A DNA stretch of 38,967 nucleotides from Lachnospiraceae bacterium (lineage in GTDB: Bacteria > Bacillota > Clostridia > Lachnospirales > Lachnospiraceae), in the NCBI GenBank assembly GCA_017553695.1, contig JAFZKG010000085.1, positions 1-38,967 of the forward strand. The letters run 5' to 3'. The translations under genes were made by a program, and so were the position numbers. Below the pieces are notes generated by a model. That model was given only the letters and a program-made list of their open reading frames with translations. It had not been told where the DNA came from and ran no database searches. Positions 365 through 4,928 of this stretch are shown here, piece by piece. Numbering within the stretch: position 1 is the stretch's first letter; every line of letters begins with the position of its first letter.

Positions 365-1300
365 TTATGGAGCGGTAACAAAGTTCTGAATTGCAAGAGC
401 TGTAAAACGGATCTGCTCTTCAGAGCTGATCGCCGCAGGGCTGTCCTTCCGGATCAATTTCGTATCTGTAAAACCGGTATGGTTGCCTCCTTCTATCTCC
501 AGATATACGGTATCCTTCGGATCATTTGCTTTCGCGTTTTGAAACTCTTTCCGGTCCATGATGGAATCGTTGGAAGCAGTTACGGAAAGGAGACGCAGAG
601 TTTTATTGGAAAGATCTGTATTGGAATAACCACCCAGATATACGAGTCCTTTGATCTTAGTGGAATGGGAAGACGCATATTTCGCTGCTACCGGACATGC
701 CTTGCCATGTGCAACGATGTACCAGGTTTTTACAGACGGATATGTGCGGCTCACATATTCCGCACCTTCCAGGTTCAGGATTGGGATGTTACCGAATGTT
801 GTCGGCAAAAATACACTGTAACCCATATTGGCCAGCGCTGCCATAAGCGGCAGATAACTTTCCCGCTGGATGCGCTCATCCCCATAGAATATGAATCCGG
901 TCTTCCAGTTTTCGCCTGGCTGCTCCATGTCCTGGATGGCGATCACATTATCACTGAATTCAATCTCAACTTCAGTCAAAGTTTGATATTCCTCGCGGCT
1001 GTGCAGAGGCTCATAGTCGTTATCAATATAGATTTTGAAGCATGTGGCAGCTAAAAGGATCACGACAACCACCAGGATCAGGATCGTTTTGCCGTGCCCT
1101 TTCCGTTTTACTCTCTTTTTCGGTTGACTTACTGGATCGGTCTGCGGAGTTTCCGAAATCTCCGGCGGCACAATCTGCTCAGACCGGATCTCCTCCGGTT
1201 TTTCTTCCTGTTGGGTCACCGCTTCCAGTGGAACGGTTTCCTGCGGCTCATTCTGTTTCAACGCAGACCGGTCGATCGCATGCTTCTTTGGTTCTCTCAT
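365..1300 (-). CDS. Membrane-anchored alpha/beta-hydrolase-like protein lacking the nucleophile serine
   Basis: This 311-residue protein has a charged, Glu/Pro-rich cytoplasmic N-terminus (about 1-68), one membrane helix (71-88) and an outward-facing domain of about 200 residues resembling the alpha/beta-hydrolase_5 family. A family-like acid position (Asp245, in ASNDS) and a terminal histidine (His274, in GGNH) are present. At the nucleophile elbow, however, the usual G-H-S-x-G reads A-H-G-K-A, with glycine at 199. It may be a non-catalytic binding protein (inference). The ATG has no clear Shine-Dalgarno. An extended -10-like element (TATGC then TACAAT) sits directly before it. It lies between rex and the corrinoid operon, all on the same strand. 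Confidence 0.7.
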   Translation of the reverse strand: MREPKKHAIDRSALKQNEPQETVPLEAVTQQEEKPEEIRSEQIVPPEISETPQTDPVSQPKKRVKRKGHGKTILILVVVVILLAATCFKIYIDNDYEPLHSREEYQTLTEVEIEFSDNVIAIQDMEQPGENWKTGFIFYGDERIQRESYLPLMAALANMGYSVFLPTTFGNIPILNLEGAEYVSRTYPSVKTWYIVAHGKACPVAAKYASSHSTKIKGLVYLGGYSNTDLSNKTLRLLSVTASNDSIMDRKEFQNAKANDPKDTVYLEIEGGNHTGFTDTKLIRKDSPAAISSEEQIRFTALAIQNFVTAP

Positions 1301-1363
1301 ATGAAGTATTGTAGCATAATTTATTGGAAATAAGGGATATATTTGCAGAAAACATCTGTATAG

Positions 1364-1401
1364 CGAATGACAGACCCCAAAGGGTCTGCCATTCGTTTTT
1401 T
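1364..1401 (+). terminator. Strong hairpin followed by a T-run, oriented on the plus strand
   Basis: A 13-base-pair stem (arms 1364-1377 and 1382-1395, one C/A mismatch, 4-base loop) is followed by six T residues at 1396-1401. It has the form of a rho-independent terminator for plus-strand transcription, but both neighbouring genes lie on the minus strand. Read on the minus strand it has no U-run. Confidence 0.6.
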
Positions 1402-1508
1402 AGGATAGGATAATATATGTATGTTACCGGTTGGGAACCGGTTTTCCCGAGTTGATAGTCCGCAACTGGAACTGCGGTGATTTTATAATATTTATGAATC
1501 AGAATCAA
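1402..1508 (-). promoter_or_regulatory. Intergenic promoter with dyad elements between the DUF4430 lipoprotein and hydrolase-like genes
   Basis: A minus-strand promoter candidate is TTGATT (1503-1508), 17 bases, TAAAAT (1480-1485), with a start near 1473. A dyad CCGCA-N8-TGCGG (1460-1477) overlaps this start like an operator. Downstream, ACCGGTT-N3-AACCGGT (1426-1442) can form a 7-bp hairpin, with an alternative overlapping pairing GGGAA/TTCCC. This would give the 365-1300 gene a roughly 170-base structured leader. I recognise no known riboswitch class. The rest of 1301-1591 is AT-rich with no gene. Confidence 0.4.
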
Positions 1509-1591
1509 TATATCTTTAGATTTTTACAAAAAGTGTCAATAATTGTAATATTTTGTAAAATCTTTAAAATCCGATTCCGGACTATAAATAC

Positions 1592-2257
1592 TCAATCTCC
1601 TACATAATACCAGTATACATTATCGCCGCTGCTTAAGAAATAATCTCCACAGGACATCATCGGGACTGATCCATTTACGGAATACATCCATCCTGATGTG
1701 GCTCCATAAGCTTTTTCACGAAGACCATTTATCGCGGAAACATAATAACTACTGCCTTCAATACCAACTCCGCAATTACACAATGCATCATATACGGAAG
1801 GCTGATAAGCGAATCCAAGTGTGCAGGAGGACATGACACCATATCCGCCATATCCGCATCCATCAACGGTGATCGTGACCACATACTGCGGAGCCTGTGT
1901 CGGTGTCTCGGTTGGAGCTTCCGTTGGTGGCTCTGTCGGTGCCTGTGTTGGTGGTTCCGTCGGAGCCTGTGTCGGTGGCTCCGTTACTGGCTGAGCCGGA
2001 ACCTGAACCTGTGCCTCCGTTACTGCCTGAGTTGGAACTTGAGTTGGAACTTCCGTCGTAGTCTGCTCTTCGGTCGTCTTTTCCTCCGTTGTTTGTTCCT
2101 GCTTCGTCTCTGACGGCGCGGATGTCGGTGCTTCCGTATTTCCGGAAAGAACCTGAACTTCCTGTTTTGAACCAATGGTCTTGCTACAGGCAGCTAACAC
2201 AAGTATCAGACCAATCGCAACTGCTATTGAAATTATTCGCTTGATTGTTTTTTTCAT
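1592..2257 (-). CDS. DUF4430 lipoprotein (transcobalamin beta-domain-like), probable corrinoid-binding partner
   Basis: A predicted lipoprotein of about 221 residues. It has a short signal sequence with the lipobox LAAC (Cys24), a Thr/Ser/Glu/Gln stretch, and a long low-complexity linker of repeated PTQAPTEPP units (about residues 60-115). A C-terminal DUF4430 domain (about 120-221) has the family signature VYDAL...SGWMYSVNG...CGDY. DUF4430 is related to the small C-terminal beta-domain that caps cobalamin in animal intrinsic factor and transcobalamin. I chose the second of two adjacent ATGs (2255-2257; the alternative is 2258-2260) because AAAGAAG lies just upstream. The gene starts 16 bases after the stop of the alpha-barrel gene, so both should be under the cobalamin riboswitch. 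Function in corrinoid capture is inferred. Confidence 0.8.
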   Translation of the reverse strand: MKKTIKRIISIAVAIGLILVLAACSKTIGSKQEVQVLSGNTEAPTSAPSETKQEQTTEEKTTEEQTTTEVPTQVPTQAVTEAQVQVPAQPVTEPPTQAPTEPPTQAPTEPPTEAPTETPTQAPQYVVTITVDGCGYGGYGVMSSCTLGFAYQPSVYDALCNCGVGIEGSSYYVSAINGLREKAYGATSGWMYSVNGSVPMMSCGDYFLSSGDNVYWYYVGD

Positions 2258-2273
2258 CATCTTCTTTGAACAA

Positions 2274-4472
2274 TCAGTTTTTATGACGAGCCAGTGTGAC
2301 TGCACCAGCTGCTGCCATGATCGATAATGTCGCAAGAATGATCCAGAGTGTCATATGGAAATTATCGCCTGTTAATGGCACATTATTTTCTCCTGCAATA
2401 CCATAATCGCTTAAATGTTTAGGTTCGAATGTCCATTCTTCTCCATCAAGAGCTGCATCTAATGTTTCGGCAATCTTTCCATCTTTGACATATACAGTTT
2501 TATAACTATCAAACTGTTTGAGATCATTTCCAACTTTCAAACGGACTTTCATATTATCTTTGATCTCAACTGGATTTCCAGATACATCCATCACATTGAT
2601 ACTATATAACTTGATGACATTGTTCGGATCATTTGCAAGTTCTTCCGGCACTTCGATTTCTTCCCATGTCAATGTATAATTTCTATCAATACCATTTTCA
2701 AATTCAACAATGAGTACGCCATCTTTTGATGCTTGAATCGGTTTTGTCGAAAGATCTATATCTGACATATCAAACAAAGATGTATCTCCATTTACTAATC
2801 TTTGAAAAGCTACAGCAGCAAGATTACCCTGCTGTGTTGCGAGAAGATTTGTTGTACCATTTGCCACTTCACAGAAACCATCCGTAGTTTTGCAAGAATT
2901 CAGATAGGTAATAGGGGACGAACCATCTGACTGAACAAATCTCAAATCGGAGTCTGGATTAATTCCATATTCTGTAAATGCTATGATTATTTGCGCAGTT
3001 GTACAGGTACTTTCAATTCCATCTTCACTACCATCTGGATTGAAACCTCCCGAAGTCATCTGCCCATTTGCCAAAGCAGTAATCGCTTTACTGATTATTT
3101 CATCTGAATCTGAATAATAAGGCTGAAGTGCCTGAAGAATCATAGCTGTACTGTCCAGGGAGACATAAGTCTCGCCACCCCATTCATAAGATACGACTCC
3201 TTCTTCTCCCAGTTCACTATATAAGTATTCTGCTAATGCTTCTTTAACTAGCTGAGCCTGTTCCGATTCATAATCCGGATGCGCATCTAAAGCTAATAAT
3301 GAATAAACTGCAATTGACGAATAAGTACCTTTTGCATAATCAACATCAAAAAGTGGCTCAAGAAGGTTATATCCTGCAACATTTGTTGCATCATACCCAG
3401 CTGCCGTCAATGCAAGTATTACTTTCGCATTTTCATTTGGTTGGTAATCGTTTAATTTTGCAGAACCTTTTTCAGTTACTGTCTTAATGACGCTTTCAAA
3501 ATATGCTTTTGCATTTTCCTCAGTGAGATCTCCTCCTCTGGCCTTTGCCAATACTTCCCACTCATATCCATATTCATATGAAATATCGCTATTATCGACA
3601 GCACTCGGAGCAGGAGTTTCATCTGAAGTGAAAGTAATTGCGTATAAAAGATCCCCGCCTGAATAATCCGGAGCTATGTAAGGTTTTTGTACCTGAATGT
3701 AATCGAAGGCTCCATCTTTTACTCCATTATAATCAGCATCATCTACTTTTATAAGTTTCTCTGTGATCCCGGTAAAAAGATCTTCATCTTTATAATTGCC
3801 TGAAATATATTCACCCGAACTATTATAATTATATAGAAGACCTGCATCGCTTAACTGTATCAAGACTTCATCCGTTCCTCTAGGAATGTTAACTATATAG
3901 ACCGGAACAACAACTCCGCCATATCCCGTATATCCTTTGTCCGTATACGAAATGTCCGTGAGCTTTTCTCCCTCAATAGATGCTGTAAAAGAGAAAGTCG
4001 GAACAATTTTAATCACATATAACGTATCAGAAATCCAATTATCCTCTTCGACAACATATGGGGTCTGTACATGTATGTACTCTGGAAAGTTTCCAGATTC
4101 ATCGACTTTGACTTTTGCCGCTTTTTCACCTGCCATAAAGTCCAGATAATTACCATCCTCTTCAGTCGAGCAACCACATACATAATACCCATTTGAGTCG
4201 TAGCCATATGCTAATCTTTCTTCTTCAAAAGTAATATTGATTTCTGTTGTTCCCATTGGAACAGCTACAGTATAAAGATCAGCTGTGAAAGAAGTTCCAT
4301 ATCCATCATCGAAATCATACGCGTCTTTGGCTAATGCAACAACTTCTCCCGAATCAAGGGTAAATGGAGTCTCCCCCTCTGCGAATGTGAGCACGCTCAT
4401 AAACGGCAGCATGGAAAGGACCAATACGACTGCCATGAAAATGCTGATCACTCTTCTCTTCAACGCTTTCAT
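2274..4472 (-). CDS. Sortase-anchored surface protein with intrinsic-factor-like alpha-helical barrel
   Basis: This 732-residue protein has a signal peptide (1-31), two tandem related beta-rich repeats (about 35-155 and 160-285) and an alpha/alpha-barrel region of prenyltransferase/cobalamin-binding type (about 295-570, with helical repeats such as YSSIAVYSLLALDA and STAMILQALQPYY). A beta domain follows, then a sorting signal PLTGD (699-703), a membrane helix and the basic tail RHKN. The start at 4470-4472 is set by AAGGAGG at good spacing; an upstream in-frame ATG fits worse. It is the first gene after a cobalamin riboswitch and is followed by a DUF4430 lipoprotein. I infer capture of B12 or other corrinoids at the cell wall. 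Enzymatic cyclase activity is unlikely for an exported, wall-anchored protein. Confidence 0.78.
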   Translation of the reverse strand: MKALKRRVISIFMAVVLVLSMLPFMSVLTFAEGETPFTLDSGEVVALAKDAYDFDDGYGTSFTADLYTVAVPMGTTEINITFEEERLAYGYDSNGYYVCGCSTEEDGNYLDFMAGEKAAKVKVDESGNFPEYIHVQTPYVVEEDNWISDTLYVIKIVPTFSFTASIEGEKLTDISYTDKGYTGYGGVVVPVYIVNIPRGTDEVLIQLSDAGLLYNYNSSGEYISGNYKDEDLFTGITEKLIKVDDADYNGVKDGAFDYIQVQKPYIAPDYSGGDLLYAITFTSDETPAPSAVDNSDISYEYGYEWEVLAKARGGDLTEENAKAYFESVIKTVTEKGSAKLNDYQPNENAKVILALTAAGYDATNVAGYNLLEPLFDVDYAKGTYSSIAVYSLLALDAHPDYESEQAQLVKEALAEYLYSELGEEGVVSYEWGGETYVSLDSTAMILQALQPYYSDSDEIISKAITALANGQMTSGGFNPDGSEDGIESTCTTAQIIIAFTEYGINPDSDLRFVQSDGSSPITYLNSCKTTDGFCEVANGTTNLLATQQGNLAAVAFQRLVNGDTSLFDMSDIDLSTKPIQASKDGVLIVEFENGIDRNYTLTWEEIEVPEELANDPNNVIKLYSINVMDVSGNPVEIKDNMKVRLKVGNDLKQFDSYKTVYVKDGKIAETLDAALDGEEWTFEPKHLSDYGIAGENNVPLTGDNFHMTLWIILATLSIMAAAGAVTLARHKN

Positions 4473-4533
4473 AAAACTCATCCTCCTTACTAATTGCAAA
4501 AACACGCCTTAACATCATGTATGAATCTTCAGT

Positions 4534-4561
4534 AAAAAAGGCACTTCGCTTCCGAAGTGCC
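4534..4561 (-). terminator. Rho-independent terminator in the cobalamin riboswitch expression platform
   Basis: A perfect 9-bp stem with a 4-base loop (4540-4561) is followed on the minus strand by six U residues (4534-4539). It sits between the aptamer and the Shine-Dalgarno of the surface-protein gene, as expected for transcriptional OFF control by cobalamin. Confidence 0.85.
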
Positions 4562-4659
4562 AGGAGTTTTTGCTGTCTGAACATAGACAAATATGTATGA
4601 CAAATAAAACGCCATACTCAAAAAGCAGCCTAGCCTCACCTCAGAAGACTAAAACAAAT

Positions 4660-4830
4660 ATCACCAGCTAGACAGGTCTACCGACTGAATCGTTCTAACC
4701 TACTCGAGATGCCTTCCCGGATTTCTCCAGTGACACAGCCTTTCAGACTCAATCTCTTTCGTTGATAACACGGTTGCTGAGACACAGTTCCTGATTCGCA
4801 CAGGGTTCCGATATGTCATCGCTGTATCTA
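4660..4830 (-). promoter_or_regulatory. Cobalamin (B12) riboswitch aptamer
   Basis: Read on the minus strand, the conserved blocks of the cobalamin riboswitch appear in order. These are GGAACCCTGTGCGAATCAGG near 4809-4790, a CAGCAACCGTGT-like block, GTCACTGG, CGGGAAGGC and finally the B12 box AGTCGGTAGACCTGTC at 4671-4686 (consensus AGYCAGGAGACCTGCC). CAGC (4821-4824) can pair with GCTG (4665-4668) to close the outer stem. The terminator at 4534-4561 follows. Bound cobalamin would stop transcription of the downstream surface-protein/lipoprotein operon. I cannot assign the ligand subtype (adenosyl- versus hydroxo/methyl-cobalamin). Confidence 0.88.
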
Positions 4831-4843
4831 TTTTGTTAGTTAA

Positions 4844-4872
4844 ATTTTAGTACTTTACTATGTAAAAAACAA
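4844..4872 (-). promoter_or_regulatory. Promoter of the cobalamin-riboswitch operon
   Basis: On the minus strand, TTGTTT (4867-4872) and TAAAAT (4844-4849) are separated by 17 bases. The predicted start near 4837 is just before the aptamer. The -35 box is weak. Confidence 0.5.
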
Positions 4873-4928
4873 TCTTAAAATTTTTAACAGTTTTGTAATA
4901 TTTTATGACAGATTATGAAACTGTTGCT

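Follow-up and report, generated by a model that had tools for sequence, protein, structure and literature searches.

A cobalamin riboswitch precedes genes for an alpha/alpha-toroid surface protein and a DUF4430 lipoprotein, a probable cobamide capture pair of Lachnospiraceae and other Gram-positive bacteria

How Gram-positive gut bacteria gather vitamin B12 from their surroundings is little known, and a survey of 2019 presented the B12 transport systems of numerous gut genomes as an open identification problem (PMC6593275). A stretch of 38,967 nucleotides (nt) from a Lachnospiraceae bacterium (contig JAFZKG010000085.1 of assembly GCA_017553695.1; hereafter the window) bears on this question. 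It carries a cobalamin riboswitch followed by two genes, all on the minus strand, which encode a predicted wall-anchored protein with an alpha/alpha toroid (protein 1) and a lipoprotein with a DUF4430 domain (protein 2). What does this pair bind, and to which importer would it deliver? We consider it probable that the pair captures cobamides and feeds them into an energy-coupling factor (ECF) importer, be it by sandwiching the ligand between both proteins or by relaying it from one to the other.

The riboswitch is the sole Rfam match in the window at gathering scores. Its aptamer (RF00174, positions 4654..4846) scores 38.8 bits in cmscan against a gathering threshold of 31.5 (E 1.6e-6), and the match spans all 189 model positions. 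Between the aptamer and the start codon of protein 1 lies a terminator-like hairpin with a U tract, the presumed expression platform (4532..4561; a 9-pair stem at 4561-4540, then TTTTTT). A terminator pattern scan stayed near chance, with 6 hits where shuffling predicts 4.8, and folding of the leader is not clearly better than that of shuffled sequence (z −1.68), thus the terminator is believable because of its position and not because of statistics.

Protein 1 is encoded at 2274..4472 (open reading frame (ORF) 4505-2274). Its start was re-assigned by eye to the ATG at 4472, nine bases after an AGGAGG. The protein consists of a signal peptide, a beta-rich N-terminal half, the toroid, a C-terminal beta domain and a sortase-type anchor, of which signal peptide and anchor were predicted by eye. 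The anchor (2277..2381) comprises the sequence VPLTGD, which we take to be a sortase-type motif, a membrane helix and a basic tail. Fold modelling and a fold search confirmed the central domain as an alpha/alpha toroid (2754..3593; ORF residues about 305-584 with a confident core at 314-583). The gene for protein 2 (1592..2260; ORF 2335-1592) probably starts at ATG 2260 or 2257, which is 13-16 nt after the stop of protein 1. The N-terminus MKKTIKRI...LAAC contains a lipobox by eye and is followed by a long Pro/Thr linker and a C-terminal DUF4430 domain (1592..1888), a transcobalamin C-terminal-like beta-grasp of the SLBB type that matches PF14478 with 61.6 bits against a cut-off of 23.8 (best stretch residues 195-245). 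SGW, Y, N and GD positions are kept in an alignment of this domain with 20 operon relatives, and protein 2 is the only DUF4430 protein found in the draft genome of the organism, which is 79% complete. A preliminary description of the window had read a cobalamin riboswitch with a terminator, a sortase-anchored protein with an alpha/alpha barrel, and a DUF4430 lipoprotein with a Pro/Thr linker from the letters alone, and all of these elements were recovered by the covariance-model, profile and fold searches or, for the terminator, the sortase anchor and the lipobox, by position or by eye.

Toroid and DUF4430 occur together far beyond the window. In a sample of 98 genomes, ranging from the same genus to the same order and including the window's own genome, protein 1 was matched in 24, two of them via the anchor/C-terminal region only, which leaves 22 genomes with a toroid. 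DUF4430 was present in 22/22 of these genomes vs 19/76 without toroid (Fisher p 5.5e-11, not corrected for relatedness); the p-value is 8.8e-9 if the two partial matches are kept and 3.4e-8 outside the genus. In the congener locus L063 (loci are cited by number where they must be told apart) the gene order is as in the window, with hydrolase, DUF4430 lipoprotein, toroid protein, riboswitch and Maf, of which hydrolase and Maf were named by eye. In another congener genome, G005, a toroid gene with riboswitch, ECF genes, cobT/U/S-like genes and a DUF4430 lipoprotein gene lie within about 12 kb.

The broader conservation of the operon was followed in a set of loci found by toroid similarity, namely the best 80 of 531 confirmed ones, all of them named. 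They stem from Lachnospiraceae, Ruminococcus bromii, Oscillospiraceae, Paenibacillus, Cohnella, Clostridium, Lutispora and others; L176 is labelled Alistipes and the remaining 79 carry Bacillota names. Using profiles built for this analysis, DUF4430 was found in 75/80 loci, an ECF S-component in 62/80 and EcfT in 57/80. The S-component gene lies on the strand of the toroid gene in 61 of 62 loci and is divergent in L106; of the 78 loci whose toroid ORF is usable, 50 keep the order toroid, DUF4430, S-component. Pfam identified CbiQ in L039 and L059 and ABC_tran in L039. These counts are not independent because L101 and L102 come from closely related strains and L098 hardly differs from L040; moreover, L161 is the same record as L045.

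A cobalamin riboswitch on the same strand lies no more than 9 kb upstream of the toroid gene in 60/80 loci, and the first ORF after it encodes the toroid or DUF4430 in 54 of these 60. Where the toroid ORF begins over 600 nt from the locus edge, 56 of 66 loci have the upstream riboswitch. The six toroids of the locus search profile came from loci of which five have a riboswitch and L045 has none, and the riboswitch search model was built from 23 seeds. Since 16 of these seeds come from the 80 loci themselves and L121 is the same record as the seed locus L039, the fairest figure is 43/63, obtained from the loci that gave no seed (44/64) after removal of L121. Independent of our model, Rfam RF00174 matched in 74/80 genomes at E 0.001 and above the cut-off in 63. 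Exactly one RF00174 match was present in 36/80 genomes, and 30 of these 36 have the upstream riboswitch at the operon; by coordinates the operon riboswitch is the single Rfam match in 29 of the 30 (counted by hand), the exception being L166. Among the six single-match genomes without operon riboswitch, L120, L125, L134 and L156 start at or near the locus edge and L153 and L160 do not. The reading that riboswitch and surface genes are unrelated and merely co-located by chance was rejected, as the operon is conserved.

As an observation apart from these counts, operon riboswitches are often only about 120-140 nt long, with scores close to the Rfam cut-off or under it (L100, L102, L111, L119 and others). 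Their length together with the near-cut-off scores suggests a compact variant of the cobalamin class. Locus L130 carries three cobalamin riboswitches about 1 kb apart (1243-4914); a short DUF4430 ORF follows two of them, and behind the third come a longer DUF4430 ORF and then the toroid gene.

Which importer is linked to the pair? A profile built from 19 operon S-components had its best match among Protein Data Bank (PDB) sequences in 6FNP chain A, which is CbrT (E 5.8e-18), followed by RibU with 3.5e-6; by this comparison CbrT is the solved S-component closest to that of the linked operon. The 6FNP structure is that of ECF-CbrT, an importer of cobalamin and cobinamide (PMC5997447). Contig C131 of the window's own genome carries the gene for an S-component which is 67% identical to the one beside riboswitch and toroid in G005 and, searched alone, again matches 6FNP_A (E 5.8e-9; next match 0.072). 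On C131, EcfT-, EcfA-, S-, CobT-, CobU-, CobS- and CbiR-like proteins are encoded together. The double EcfA ATPase and CobT exceed the NCBIfam cut-offs, and the EcfT-like protein was assigned by its similarity to that of L059, a member of the CbiQ family; the cobT/U/S genes of L059 were named by eye.

A different explanation would leave the regulation by cobalamin intact and assign the pair another ligand, such as cobalt, a lower-ligand base or a heme-like tetrapyrrole. Cobalt uptake is also found under cobalamin riboswitches (PMC3766115), a reviewer of the 2007 study of bacterial relatives discussed below cautioned that ligands other than B12 are possible for the clade (PMC1796856), and CbiD of the corrin pathway is present in the window's own genome. 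The relationship of the linked S-component to CbrT among the solved structures and the cobT/U/S-like genes in the importer cluster of the own genome point to corrinoids instead. Furthermore, CbiD was absent from 25 of 26 hand-picked operon genomes, many of them drafts in which absence is uncertain, thus these organisms would have little need of cobalt for making corrins. Of the 26 genomes, 25 have a single RF00174 match, which lies at the operon, and L144 has eight matches. Taking both sides together, we regard another ligand as unlikely, and cobalt uptake was rejected on account of the CbrT-like S-component and the lack of CbiD in 25 of the 26 chosen genomes.

The same 26 genomes were examined for other B12 permeases. 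A strong BtuC-type permease (E <1e-70) was found in five of them; FecCD was matched in 13 at E 0.001 and above the cut-off in seven, two of these being partial. Many of the genomes are drafts and absences are uncertain, but in most of them the operon is the best candidate for B12 uptake that we found. Ruminococcus bromii, a cultured bacterium, is described as unable to make B12 and as having metH (PMC6231298). In all three R. bromii assemblies searched the only RF00174 match lies at the operon, below the Rfam cut-off in two of them.

The toroid by itself could be read differently. Its best matches in sequence and fold are squalene-hopene and related cyclases, as would be expected if it were a cyclase or prenyltransferase-type enzyme, or otherwise a plain adhesin, that came under B12 control by chance. 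The class II cyclases use a catalytic DxDD-type motif, which inspection by eye did not reveal in the toroid region of protein 1, and the protein is predicted to be secreted and anchored to the wall; on these grounds a squalene-hopene cyclase enzyme was rejected. Linkage of the toroid with DUF4430 and the S-component in the majority of the 80 loci likewise argues against an enzyme or adhesin, a reading which we regard as highly improbable.

Several findings nevertheless weigh against cobamide capture by the pair; they are given here together with searches that gave no informative match. The preliminary description had proposed a counterpart of intrinsic factor and transcobalamin. The domain types are indeed shared with these carriers, but in sequence the toroid resembles squalene-hopene cyclases more closely than the animal proteins: searching PDB sequences with the toroid profile gave 48 matches up to E 10 with no animal B12 carrier, and none appears among the 50 matches listed in a fold comparison with VIA-align. 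PF01122 did not match the window toroid; in the toroid family it matched one of 23 members at E 0.0043 and none of 40 at E 0.01 in another set. The DUF4430 profile gave only chance matches to PDB sequences and no animal carrier. With single proteins, the PDB search gave no match for protein 1 and chance matches only for protein 2, and NCBIfam gave matches far below cut-off for both. The window toroid has diverged from its family (31-42% identity), a contig search of genomes with the window's own protein gave 31 pattern matches of which none was confirmed, and the N-terminal half of protein 1 has no recognised domain and no relative in the fetched loci. A crude pattern test for wall anchors of the sortase, SLH-like or dockerin type was positive for 27 of 78 toroid proteins and negative for the other 51, thus surface display of all toroid proteins is not established. 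In the own genome the importer lies on a different contig from the pair, no riboswitch was found on the scanned 20 kb of the 29 kb of C131, and the CobU-, CobS- and CbiR-like matches fall below the NCBIfam cut-offs. The nearest NCBIfam models of the own S-component are folate and riboflavin models, both below cut-off (39.2 of 60 and 38.4 of 99), in a search that gave no CbrT model. Finally, the own genome encodes CbiD, cbi/cob-like genes and a Peripla_BP_2 (btuF-like) lipoprotein followed by BtuC/BtuD-like genes (by eye), and these genes make corrinoid synthesis by the organism itself probable, which sets it apart from most of the 26 genomes. In this organism the pair would therefore serve salvage. 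Set against these points are the riboswitches and the CbrT-like importer at most of the 80 loci and the own importer beside cobT/U/S-like genes, which support the corrinoid function and the delivery to an importer that the preliminary description had put forward.

The anchors that were recognised are of several types: sortase-type in the window and in L063, surface layer homology (SLH) in L059, and dockerin in R. bromii. The R. bromii toroid protein (L101, L102, L129; e.g. L102:9101-11002) has a DUF4430 domain, a Cadherin-like match below cut-off, the toroid and a C-terminal dockerin, which scored 42 bits as Dockerin_1 in L102 and was recognised by eye in L101 and L129. This dockerin raises the possibility that B12 capture in R. 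bromii is attached to a cohesin scaffold, for instance the amylosome.

How would capture proceed? From the sequence data we infer the ligand, the contact between the two chains and the hand-off as follows. When adenosylcobalamin is scarce, the riboswitch would let transcription proceed past the terminator, as expected from the class of the RNA. Protein 1 would be anchored to the wall by sortase and would hold a cobamide in its alpha/alpha toroid. The DUF4430 domain of protein 2, mobile on its flexible linker, would meet the loaded toroid so that the beta-grasp touches the corrinoid, and protein 2 would then hand the corrinoid to the CbrT-like ECF transporter in the membrane. Incomplete or foreign corrinoids could be completed after import by the CobT/CobU/CobS-like enzymes encoded beside the transporter.

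Two geometries of this capture-and-import process can be distinguished. We tentatively propose, with rather more doubt than confidence, a two-chain transcobalamin in which the wall toroid and the DUF4430 lipoprotein approach a single corrinoid from either side of the wall space, enclose it together and load the CbrT-like S-component directly. The pair would then represent a widespread Gram-positive capture-and-relay stage and a living bacterial form of the parts from which the animal carriers were assembled. Alternatively, the toroid protein captures alone, or in relatives with its own fused DUF4430, and the membrane DUF4430 is a separate acceptor that loads the S-component, with a joint hold only in transfer; we see in this a serious possibility that falls somewhat short of an even balance. 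The relay is a sub-version of the capture-and-import reading and does not exclude it. DUF4430 lies inside the toroid protein in 48/80 loci and in a separate ORF in 63/80, and because both forms often coexist the relay is favoured in the relatives. It is also consistent with the separate DUF4430 proteins encoded directly downstream, which appear N-terminally membrane-anchored in 52 of 52 tested (49 by a hydrophobic segment and three by a lipobox, according to regular expression and hydropathy). Among the congeners, the toroid proteins contain DUF4430-like repeats, four in L059 and two in L063, where a separate lipoprotein is present in addition. By direct profile these repeats are weak (E 9.7e-5 in L059 and 0.019 in L063), and they were linked by iterated search. 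In the window, profile and iterated searches detected no DUF4430 and no such repeats in protein 1, thus the lipoprotein is the only candidate for the beta half and the sandwich is favoured here.

A protein in which both halves are joined was seen in L064 (8529-10307), where toroid, a membrane segment (by eye) and DUF4430 follow each other in one chain with ECF-type genes (named by eye) downstream. By its domains it appears to be the one-chain counterpart of the split pair.

The general idea of B12 scavenging by bacterial toroid/SLBB proteins has been known since 2007. Burroughs et al. described bacterial proteins that combine a toroid with transcobalamin-like SLBB domains and carry anchors of the Gram-positive kind. 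The operons hold a further extracellular SLBB protein and have neighbours resembling CbiO and CbiQ. The authors predicted a role in scavenging B12 and suggested that low-GC Gram-positives were the source of the pair in animals (PMC1796856). Secreted toroid and SLBB proteins in an operon with CbiO/CbiQ-type genes likewise occur in the relatives of the window; in its own genome the transporter genes are on another contig. In contrast to the fusion of toroid and SLBB in one protein described there, the window has the two split into a wall protein and a lipoprotein, and its system adds the cobalamin riboswitch and a CbrT-type S-component. The word riboswitch has 0 occurrences in that paper (PMC1796856). 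What is new here is thus the riboswitch link, the CbrT-type importer and the strict two-gene split. We found no experimental study of such a bacterial toroid/DUF4430 system in the open-access literature, and no bacterial B12 work in the accessible sections of open-access papers that mention DUF4430.

In transcobalamin, toroid and beta domain sandwich one B12 molecule (PMC1796856), and TCN proteins carry a C-terminal DUF4430 (PMC4350170). Like intrinsic factor, transcobalamin and haptocorrin, the window system combines a toroid with a DUF4430-type beta domain; unlike them, it consists of two surface-anchored chains with a diverged toroid and putative corrinoid binding. The window encodes toroid and beta domain in two ORFs, and fusions of both in one chain are present in relatives. 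Compared with ECF-CbrT, the S-component is of the nearest solved type, whereas here it comes with an EcfT/EcfA set of its own and with extracellular capture proteins, neither of which is part of the published description of CbrT as far as it is accessible (PMC5997447). The Bacteroides proteins BtuG and BtuH similarly capture B12 at the surface of gut bacteria ahead of an importer (PMC10404256, PMC8941943), but according to these reports with other domains and in an outer-membrane TonB system, in place of cell wall and ECF transporter.

If a dedicated surface capture stage exists, it would change the picture of ECF transporters, which to our knowledge are thought to need no extracellular binding protein. 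The origin of animal B12 carriers in Gram-positive bacteria, as proposed in 2007, becomes testable with purified domains, and cultured bacteria, Ruminococcus bromii among them, carry the operon.

Beside the pair, the window encodes an alpha/beta hydrolase (365..1300, minus strand; PF12695, 114 bits), and a Maf gene lies upstream. The hydrolase adjoins the toroid/DUF4430 pair in three congeners, namely in the window, in L063 (4730-5506) and in L183 (3136-4323), the last two identified by eye.

The own genome has four RF00174 matches including that of the window, and further surface proteins are found at cobalamin riboswitches. On contig C91 (L037:5210-6343) a second cobalamin riboswitch lies ahead of the gene for a large surface protein rich in Glu and Pro, which is truncated by the contig end. 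A similar protein is encoded at the start of contig C15 (L184:2-5238), upstream of btuFCD-like and cbi/cob-like genes, of which btuC/btuD and cbi/cob were named by eye. This C15 protein has a NEAT match below threshold (26.1 vs 32.8 bits); NEAT domains bind heme, and the ligand of the NEAT-like domain might here be a corrinoid. On contig C89 (L036:2-1179) a cobalamin riboswitch precedes an extracellular solute-binding lipoprotein, of the peptide/nickel type by eye, whose ligand could be a corrinoid precursor or cobalt. On contig C121 (L038:3826-5415) a cobalamin riboswitch stands before a lipoprotein form of the cobaltochelatase CbiK, matched below the NCBIfam cut-off, and the CbiK-like gene is followed by hemA/B/L-like genes (by eye).

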